Of a stretch of DNA of 64,000 nt, positions 39,409 to 41,157 are shown piece by piece. The DNA is taken from NCBI RefSeq assembly GCF_001423765.1, contig NZ_LMPG01000001.1, forward strand, positions 626,073 to 690,072, in the 5' to 3' direction. Source of the stretch: Sphingomonas sp. Leaf343 (GTDB taxonomy: Bacteria; Pseudomonadota; Alphaproteobacteria; Sphingomonadales; Sphingomonadaceae). The translations under genes and the position numbers were made by a program. Below the pieces are notes generated by a model, which was not told where the DNA came from, ran no database searches, and saw nothing but the letters and a program-made list of their open reading frames with translations. The number at the start of each line of letters is the position of its first letter. Within the stretch, counting starts at the first letter, position 1.

Positions 39409-39873
39409 ATGCGCTGTCCGTTTTGCAGCCACGAGGACAGCCAGGTCAAGGATAGCCGCTCCACGGAAGATGGAGCGGCTATCCGGCGGCGGCGGCAATG
39501 CGAGGCGTGCGGCGCGCGGTTCACGACGTTCGAGCGCATTCAGTTGCGCGAGTTGACCGTGTTGAAGAGCGAAAACCGGCGCGAGCCGTTCGACCGCGAA
39601 AAGCTGATGCGTTCCGTATCGATCGCCGCGCGCAAGCGGCCGGTCGAGGCTGCGCGGATCGAGAAGCTGGTCACGGGCATCCAGCGCCGACTGGAGACGC
39701 TGGGGGAGGGGGAGGTGACCTCCGCCCGGATCGGCGAACTGGTGATGGACGGGCTGAAGGGGCTGGATTCGGTCGCCTATATCCGTTTCGCGAGCGTATA
39801 CCGCGATTTTAACGAGGCGCGCGATTTCGAGGCGTTCGCCGGCGCAGTGGAAGAGGCCGGGCGGGGCGAGTAG
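39409..39873 (+). CDS. nrdR: Transcriptional repressor NrdR
   Basis: A 154-residue repressor of ribonucleotide reductase genes. The zinc ribbon is formed by CPFC (residues 3-6) and CEACG (near 31-35), and the ATP-cone lies from about residue 46 ([20 protein letters not shown]) to 136. It senses ATP/dATP and binds NrdR boxes; none is evident in this window, and no nrd gene is present. It is fourth in the rpiB-glyA operon. Confidence 0.96.
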
Positions 39874-39904: not shown

Positions 39905-39955
39905 CCGTTCATCCTGAGTAGCGGCTGAGCGAAGTCGAAGACGCGTATCGAAGGA
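39905..39955 (+). repeat. Left copy of an inverted ~50 bp repeat flanking the GIY-YIG domain
   Basis: Begins CCGTTCATCCTGAG and ends TCGAAGGA. It matches the reverse complement of 40241-40290 at about 40 of 51 aligned positions. The terminal AAGGA (39951-39955) sits 8 bases before the TTG start of the GIY-YIG-TrmJ gene and serves as its likely ribosome binding site. Confidence 0.85.
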
Positions 39956-39963
39956 CAGATGAG

Positions 39964-41157
39964 TTGAGCTTCTACACCTACATGCTGAGGTGTGCCGACG
40001 GCAGCTACTATATCGGCCACACCGATGCTCTCGATCGCCGCATCGCGCAGCACCAGCTCGGCGAGCTGGAGGGATACACACAGACGCGGCGTCCCGTGGA
40101 ACCGGTTTGGTCGCAGGATTTTCCCTCGCAGGCGGAAGCTTTGGAAGCGGAGCGGCAATTGAAGGGTTGGTCGCGCGCCAAGAAGGAAGCGTTGATCGCC
40201 GGCGATTGGGATCTCGTCCGGACGCTCGCGCGTCGCAATGTCCTTCGAGATGCCCCTTCGACAGGCTCAGTGGCTCCTCAGGACGAACGGTTTTCCACTT
40301 TCGCCGATCGTGCCGGGGAGGGGCTGAGCGACGCCGAGGCTCCATCTCGCAATGCCACCCCGCCCCCTGTCATCGTCCTCGTCCGCCCCCAGCTTGGCGA
40401 GAATATCGGCAAGGCCGCGCGCGCGATGCTCAATTTCGGGCTGCTCGACCTGCGCCTCGTCGCACCGCGAGACGGGTGGCCGAATGCCGCCGCCGGCCCT
40501 GCCGCATCGGGTGCGGACATCGTCCTCGAACGTGCGCAGCTATACGATACGGTCGCCGACGCGGTCGCCGATTGCGCGCACGTCTATGCCACCACTGTCC
40601 GCAAGCGCGGCGTCACCAAACCGGTGGTCAAGCCCGACGAGGCGGCGGCGGCGATCCATACCGGTCCCGGCCGCTCGGCGATCCTGTTTGGGCCGGAGCG
40701 CTCCGGGCTGGAGACGGACGATGTCGCGGTCGCGCGAACGATCATCACCGTGCCGATCAACCCGGAATTCGGCAGCCTCAACCTCGCGCAGGCGGTGATC
40801 CTCGTCGCCTATGAATGGTCGAAGTATCTGGATCTGGCGCAGCCGCCGGAAACCGAGCTGCCGGAACCCGCGGCGCAGGAGGAACTGGACGGTATGATCG
40901 GCCAGCTCGATGCGATGCTGGTGCACGCCAATTTCTATTTCCCGCCGGCCCGTACCGAAACGACGCGGCGGACGCTGCGTACGTTGCTGACCAAGCCGGG
41001 CTGGTCGACACAAGAGGTGCGGACGGTGCGCGGCGTGCTCTCCGCGCTGGACGGGGCGAAGATGCGGCGAACTTCAGCCGTGCCGGAGGCTTCAGCGGCG
41101 CCGGTCGAAGGCAGCGAGTTCGTAGGCGATCGAAACCTCGACGAGCCGCTCCCATAG
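39964..41157 (+). CDS. trmJ: Fusion of a GIY-YIG nuclease domain and a TrmJ-like tRNA methyltransferase
   Basis: A 397-residue frame with two domains. Residues 1 to ~90 are a GIY-YIG nuclease of the UPF0213 type (FYTYMLRCADGSYYIGHT, then the Glu in EALEAERQLKGWSRAKKEAL). Residues ~134-375 are a SPOUT methyltransferase of the TrmJ/TrmH group, which 2'-O-methylates tRNA position 32 in E. coli: LVRPQLGENIGKAARAMLNFG, LFGPERSGLETDD, NPEFGSLNLAQAV. The linker (93-133) is partly the translation of a dispersed repeat. TrmJ has no in-frame ATG of its own; a GTG at 40270 inside the repeat is the only close alternative. The last 66 bases overlap the convergent chorismate mutase gene. Confidence 0.88.
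   Translation: MSFYTYMLRCADGSYYIGHTDALDRRIAQHQLGELEGYTQTRRPVEPVWSQDFPSQAEALEAERQLKGWSRAKKEALIAGDWDLVRTLARRNVLRDAPSTGSVAPQDERFSTFADRAGEGLSDAEAPSRNATPPPVIVLVRPQLGENIGKAARAMLNFGLLDLRLVAPRDGWPNAAAGPAASGADIVLERAQLYDTVADAVADCAHVYATTVRKRGVTKPVVKPDEAAAAIHTGPGRSAILFGPERSGLETDDVAVARTIITVPINPEFGSLNLAQAVILVAYEWSKYLDLAQPPETELPEPAAQEELDGMIGQLDAMLVHANFYFPPARTETTRRTLRTLLTKPGWSTQEVRTVRGVLSALDGAKMRRTSAVPEASAAPVEGSEFVGDRNLDEPLP
40241..40290 (-). repeat. Right copy of the inverted ~50 bp repeat, inside the fusion linker
   Basis: Starts TCCTTCGAGA and ends CAGGACGAACGG, inverted with respect to 39905-39955. It is read through in frame and encodes roughly residues 93-109 of the fusion protein, joining the nuclease and methyltransferase domains. 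Confidence 0.85.

Follow-up and report, generated by a model that had tools for sequence, protein, structure and literature searches.

The closest described counterpart of the locus considered here is the REP/RAYT system (REPtrons, REPINs), in which the repeats are tagged, imperfect hairpins, close pairs of repeats keep a single orientation, the gene for the enzyme sits between inverted copies of a repeat that also occurs as inverted dimers, subtypes of enzyme and repeat are paired, and relic repeats are found without the gene. The enzyme of that system, RAYT, is an HUH Y1 transposase and serves REPs tagged GTAG. Among enzymes with the GIY-YIG fold, free-standing homing endonucleases exist, such as Seg of phage T4, and Ssn of Neisseria is said to be a GIY-YIG enzyme acting on a dispersed repeat (NTS) in single-stranded DNA. 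If Ssn is as reported, it provides a biochemical precedent and leaves less novelty in the nuclease-repeat link itself; we set our locus beside it by description only, as another GIY-YIG enzyme tied to a dispersed repeat.

A further class of REPs is defined by a CGTC tag, an 8- to 9-bp stem beginning with A-T, and a CCA tail; it includes dRS3 of the Neisseriae and RPE-4 and RPE-6 of Rickettsia, and the part of the report considered here describes it as having no dedicated or associated transposase (Di Nocera 2013, PMC3733652). A GIY-YIG-SPOUT fusion, with the GIY-YIG domain N terminal to a COG0565-type methylase, was described for Erythrobacter litoralis by papers of 2006 and 2007 (PMC1564403, PMC1829167). 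The earlier of the two, in the section bearing on the fusion, held that it might lack functional relevance and raised the question whether other proteins with the GIY-YIG fold live as molecular parasites (PMC1564403). Literature searches, mostly without subscription papers, returned nothing on Ssn or NTS and, among the matches listed, no paper joining GIY-YIG with "repetitive extragenic palindromic." The matches listed for GIY-YIG with "rayt" or "repin" were mitochondrial genomes, a viral paper, a model of a restriction enzyme, and the pangenome of Moraxella, in whose relevant portion the two occupy separate rows of one gene table; the portions considered of two REP papers (PMC12306157, PMC6006769) do not mention GIY-YIG.

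The feature described below is probably an occupied site of a repeat-nuclease cassette, namely, a GIY-YIG gene lying between outward-facing, REP-like hairpins, with the nuclease as their likely mobilizer. It shares with REP/RAYT each of the traits listed above but differs both in its enzyme, a GIY-YIG nuclease rather than an HUH Y1 transposase, and in its tag, which is CCG(T/C)TC in the repeats that we call type A and CGTC in many repeats of a second nuclease group, rather than GTAG; the cassette would hence work like REP/RAYT without being a member of it. As with homing endonucleases such as Seg, a small nuclease gene can enter new loci, but no intron or allelic homing was seen, and the gene occurs with dispersed hairpin repeats. 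The first-pass annotation had proposed a mobilizable cassette with the logic of REP/RAYT or homing systems: the former likeness stands in respect of the hairpin, the orientation, the gene between copies, and the subtype specificity, whereas the latter extends to the nuclease fold only.

The GIY-YIG-TrmJ frame and the type A repeat

The window, by which we mean the whole 64,000-nucleotide stretch of Sphingomonas DNA analyzed, contains a single open frame that joins a small nuclease to a methylase and is bracketed at its nuclease part by two inverted repeat copies (Table 1). The nuclease domain was recovered by PF01541 at residues 3 to 74 of the 397 (E = 6e-17), and the methylase by PF00588 (SpoU-type methylase) at residues 136 to 283 (E = 5e-21, over the cut-off). 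TIGR00050 is the best NCBIfam match of the latter part, at 154.6 bits, which lies under its curated cut-off of 167. By these matches the methylase part is placed in the TrmJ family of SPOUT 2'-O-methyltransferases, and the N-terminal part belongs to the GIY-YIG nuclease superfamily, whose signature of conserved Tyr, Arg, and Glu residues it carries. Positions Y6, Y16, R26, and E63 are kept in 71 to 74 of 74 fused and 74 to 75 of 76 free family members. When compared with UPF0213, the family profile matches the structures 1zg2 (E = 2e-18) and 1ywl. The upstream neighbor, named nrdR in the first-pass annotation, is taken to be nrdR here also.

Table 1. Features of the locus, in window coordinates
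Feature	Position	Strand	Remark
nrdR, upstream neighbor	39409..39873	+	Open frame; translation matched the same neighbor in relatives (tblastn)
Left copy of the repeat (long form of type A), with the CCGTTC tag facing outward	39905..39957	+	Supplies AAGGA
Core of left copy, TGAGCGAAGTCGAAG	39926..39940	+	
AAGGA, likely ribosome site, 8 bases 5' of TTG (39964)	39951..39955	+	Predicted function
GIY-YIG + TrmJ fused open frame, 397 aa, TTG start	39964..41157	+	
GIY-YIG nuclease domain, family A	39964..40230	+	PF01541
Linker, 126 nt, holding the right repeat copy in frame	40231..40356	+	
Right copy of the repeat (long form of type A), with the tag facing outward	40239..40290	-	
Core of right copy, TGAGCCTGTCGAAG	40256..40269	-	
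TrmJ-type SPOUT 2'-O-methyltransferase part	40357..41157	+	PF00588, TIGR00050

The first-pass annotation had put the likeness of the two inverted copies at about 40 of 51 positions, which was right in substance: their alignment spans 53 columns, of which 42 are identical, 10 mismatched, and 1 gapped, and its local score of 30 exceeds the best score (22) among 2,986 random window pairs. The further claims of that annotation, that the left copy supplies the AAGGA placed ahead of the TTG start and that the right copy is read into the TrmJ linker, are confirmed, the right copy being translated in frame within the linker as VLRDAPSTGSVAPQDERF. Relatives show the left copy in the same position and orientation beside the GIY-YIG gene. 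We read both window copies as a putative long form, with a second core nested between the arms.

In the host genome itself the repeat is sparse. A BLAST search for further copies gave the left copy itself and four short matches of 14 to 17 bases, and the exact 15-base core occurs once (at most one mismatch), as does its reversed control, whereas the looser core CTGAGCN{3,4}TCGAAG occurs 11 times against none for the reversed control; because the exact core is not above control while the looser one is, we regard type A as a remnant in this genome. Its dispersal is clear only in related genomes: in a sample of 121 genomes of the genus, up to 302 copies of the looser core were counted per genome, with 0 to 3 per strand for the reversed control.

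Type A is an imperfect hairpin that bears a tag and whose stem positions covary. It was examined in 122 distinct flank copies that were selected by a TGAGC...TCGAA core, so that constancy of the core is there by construction and the tag and stem alone are informative. In the tag, CCG(T/C)TC, five of the six positions have a single base in 98 to 119 of the 122 copies, and the fourth is T in 69 and C in 41. One stem pair is Watson-Crick in 97% of the copies, against 34% expected from the columns, and another in 93% against 55% (neither corrected for kinship). A further 20 distinct copies, taken from other places in three genomes, show these two pairs as Watson-Crick in 95% and 100%, against 60% and 50% expected. 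Energy folding of the type A repeat and of both window copies was no better than that of shuffled sequences, and the hairpin therefore rests on the covariation; a CGTC REP folded strongly in the same comparison (z = -4.6). Close pairs of type A copies are arranged as + followed by - in 46 of 46 cases, like REP dimers, among the copies listed for two genomes (100 of 133 and 50 of 153). This is the orientation of the copies that flank the GIY-YIG gene, and the dispersed pairs thus have the layout of the gene's two ends with the gene left out. A replication-linked strand bias of type A copies was considered and dropped, as total counts are even on both strands.

Flanking repeats in two groups of GIY-YIG genes

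Relatives of the window's GIY-YIG domain at an E value of about 1e-15 or better constitute family A; the named set (the best 80 of 225) belongs to Sphingomonas, Sphingobium, Novosphingobium, Blastomonas, Erythrobacter-like genera, and some others. Within the genus, 76 of the 121 genomes possess a family A gene. Of 90 such loci, 38 have a + core no more than 110 nt upstream, 44 a - core no more than 60 nt downstream, and 36 both, against 0 to 2 and 0 to 1, respectively, in control windows slid five ways by 300 to 1,100 nt. A motif-free test, in which the upstream flank was aligned to the downstream flank after reverse complementing the latter, with a cut-off at the 99th percentile of 507 in-locus controls, placed a flanking inverted repeat at 140 of 169 family A loci and at 123 of 151 distinct genes, against a control rate of 1%; at the other 28 distinct loci this alignment found no such repeat. 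The first-pass annotation had staked its proposal on the repeat being enriched beside GIY-YIG genes of this type, as opposed to merely scattered, and these counts show a very strong enrichment.

Away from trmJ, the 77 distinct family A loci form 33 site clusters by shared neighbors (36 if both neighbors are required), two of which contain 24 and 19 loci. The flanking repeat is borne by 28 of these clusters; the five where none was found are in records labeled Burkholderiales, Chloroflexi (two), beta proteobacterium, and Solimonas. Six loci with non-Sphingomonadales labels (L224, L230, L232, L255, L256, and L263) gave no flanking inverted repeat above threshold, with L256 and L263 having a single A core on one side, and one labeled Chloroflexota (L212) has a flanking repeat. 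The six could stem from horizontal transfer or from contaminated bins. Two loci of the phylum-wide set described below, from the same class but another order (L330 and L333), have flanking repeats resembling CCTGAG..TCGAAGG, and type A-like repeats may reach further.

A second GIY-YIG group, examined in 20 genes of the genus, is about 33% identical to family A. The flanks of 12 of these exceed 23.9, the threshold of the family A set with its shorter flanks, and those of 9 exceed 24.07, the threshold of the phylum-wide set. For the latter, a profile of both groups was run against 200 genomes of the phylum and 110 loci were examined. Genes scoring at least 75 bits are flanked by inverted repeats in 40 of 69 cases, i.e., 7 of 11 A-type genes, which include the window itself and other members of the genus, and 33 of 58 others; no flanking inverted repeat was found for the remaining 29. 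Lower-scoring genes, which we take to be UPF0213-like, are flanked in 1 of 40 cases (Fisher, 6e-10), and that lone flanked gene (L287) is a broken gene of the higher-scoring group.

The palindromes beside second-group genes differ from type A, and several match the CGTC REPs of PMC3733652; a part of these repeats has the GTCA tag end, the perfect stem, and the CC tail. A strict CGTC REP adjoins 20 of 70 genes of both groups, against 1 of 40 UPF0213-like genes and 7 of 420 control windows, with its tag mostly outward (13 to 1 upstream and 13 to 6 downstream). Whereas the part of PMC3733652 considered here reports no transposase for such REPs, the GIY-YIG gene is here the associated enzyme. The window's own type A repeats are not CGTC REPs, having another tag, a shorter covarying stem, and no CCA tail.

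The two nuclease groups keep to their own repeat types. No A core was found within 400 nt of any of the 20 second-group genes, nor beside any of the 16 second-group loci in genomes holding 26 to 136 A copies. Conversely, the palindrome CCCCGG..CCGGGG lies within 150 nt of 10 of the 20 second-group genes and of none of 170 family A loci. The median number of A-repeat copies is 37.5 in the 76 genomes with an A gene and 5 in the 45 without one, a comparison uncorrected for kinship; seven genomes with the gene have at most five copies. A strict dependence of the repeat on the gene, in its simple form, is rejected by nine genomes with 20 or more A repeats (26 to 136 copies) and no intact A gene. 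By the family profile, eight of the nine carry second-group genes only and one carries no GIY-YIG gene, and their A repeats look like relics. One of the eight (G041) also has a decayed A remnant that keeps a single A repeat, located inside the remnant's open frame.

Proposed mobilization of the repeats and its alternatives

Since each nuclease type has a repeat type of its own, the enzyme that has been missing as a partner for these repeats is probably the GIY-YIG nuclease. It would play for them the part that RAYT plays for the GTAG REPs: the protein may recognize the tag and hairpin as single-stranded DNA and nick at the tag, after which a repeat pair or a repeat-gene-repeat unit could be copied to new places through host replication or repair. 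GIY-YIG enzymes hydrolyze DNA and are not known to rejoin it; rejoining would therefore have to come from the host, unlike in the case of RAYT.

More generally, we lean toward the view that there is a second, transposase-free route to REP populations, in which GIY-YIG nucleases are the dedicated enzymes of CGTC REPs and further hairpin families, with lineages coevolving with their own tag and hairpin, and in which a cassette can fuse to a housekeeping gene, giving a lasting nuclease-tRNA methyltransferase chimera in Sphingomonadales. The pairing of nuclease and repeat provides several families of repeats with a candidate enzyme, and, if this view is true, REP-like populations arose at least twice, from unrelated enzymes.

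A different role for the same enzyme is conceivable: rather than a selfish mobilizer, it may be a single-strand nuclease that benefits the host, with the repeats serving as genomic marks, e.g., for directing DNA uptake or recombination. In favor of this are Ssn, with its reported action on single-stranded dispersed repeats in Neisseria, and the conserved in-frame fusion to TrmJ, which suggests host use; but the patchy presence of the gene within the genus, its 33 other site clusters, and at least one decayed copy are typical of mobile DNA, and we consider this alternative unlikely.

It is improbable that another enzyme moves the repeats and that the GIY-YIG gene is a passenger trapped between two of them. 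Such an account would accommodate the nine genomes that retain many A repeats without the gene, and it gains from the fact that the part we give to the GIY-YIG protein in repeat movement is inferred. However, a RAYT as the enzyme of the repeats is rejected by the occurrence of Y1_Tnp (PF01797) in 1 only of 20 mostly repeat-rich genomes, a set that includes the host genome: in a search that covered the Y1 family it was absent from the other 19. The nuclease group also predicts the type of the repeats, and its catalytic positions are conserved.

The nrdR-trmJ junction and the fused frame

We return to the reading preferred here, that of a cassette mobilized by its own nuclease, at the site where the window's copy lies. 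The junction was searched in 28 genomes without a family A gene, of which 27 were readable; the gap between nrdR and trmJ is at most 40 bp in 23 of these, several with overlapping stop and start, and measures 68 bp in one and 171 to 396 bp in three. The first-pass annotation had proposed looking for relatives with an empty site, as against a GIY-YIG gene present without repeats between nrdR and trmJ in all relatives, and the closed junction in 23 of the 27 supplies them. Among the three wide gaps, one (L178) contains a decayed GIY-YIG gene and another (L169, in genome G120) an inverted pair of CGTC REPs with no GIY-YIG gene, from which it follows that the junction takes repeat pairs as well as cassettes.

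Where the site is occupied, GIY-YIG and TrmJ share one frame in 70 of 75 distinct loci (P = 9e-28 against one-third, uncorrected for kinship), and 68 of the 70 are free of stops, with linkers of 37 different lengths between 24 and 237 nt. As the common frame persists over so many lengths, we conclude that this is a real fusion whose frame is maintained by selection. It resembles the Erythrobacter litoralis fusion in its order of domains but differs in its extent, as the part of the earlier reports considered here concerns one species (PMC1564403, PMC1829167), against 68 loci that are open and in frame, and an origin by way of the repeats, in our case.

That the frame is no true fusion, TrmJ being started internally and the linker being open by chance, is quite improbable. 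Of the 68 open loci, 21 do have an in-frame ATG in the 60 nt that precede the TrmJ core (ATG alone being counted), and a GTG stands in frame at position 40270 of the window, but 47 of the 68 have no such ATG, and chance would hardly hold the frame in 70 of 75 loci across so many linker lengths (P = 9e-28, again uncorrected for kinship).

In a tree of the GIY-YIG domains, built on few columns and with 13 of 144 inner branches well supported, copies linked to trmJ separate from the others in 8 changes, against 49 when shuffled; evolutionary distances correlate at r = 0.40 between GIY-YIG and TrmJ and at 0.72 between TrmJ and NrdR. Because the occupied copies cluster and the GIY-YIG and TrmJ distances correlate, a closed site may partly mean loss, and we read the cassette at nrdR-trmJ as an old arrival with losses and perhaps reentries. 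As it looks old and mostly inherited with its site, this cassette is probably domesticated. It lies between two genes that, where it is missing, overlap or almost touch at their stop and start codons; the fused frame, initiated from the ribosome site of the left repeat and passing through the right one, may then maintain TrmJ translation, and the locus would since have been domesticated. This offers a concrete route from a mobile cassette to a chimeric protein retained across a bacterial order.

The scatter of the repeats and the concentration of 24 and 19 of the 77 non-trmJ loci in two site clusters could suggest ordinary intergenic hairpins brought next to GIY-YIG genes by shared intergenic space or hot spots, but this is very improbable given the 0 to 2 of 90 in slid windows, the flanking of 28 of 33 site clusters against that of 1 of 40 UPF0213-like genes, the fixed flank orientation, and the lack of any cross-matching of nuclease groups and repeats, even in genomes in which the other repeat type is plentiful.

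Further cassettes occur beyond the junction. The host genome has a second one, a free family A gene with A repeats (G000:C14, L104), and a third, a second-group gene with CCCCGG..CCGGGG repeats (G000:C12, L304). In another genome, two A cores, + then -, lie 389 bp apart (G010:C1:1191172-1191575) and may be a worn-out cassette. In several species, second-group genes (L112, L113, L114, L120, L125, and L126) are situated just upstream of one recurrent gene, which from its start is presumably sucD-like, and the position upstream of it reads like a recurrent insertion site for genes of this group.
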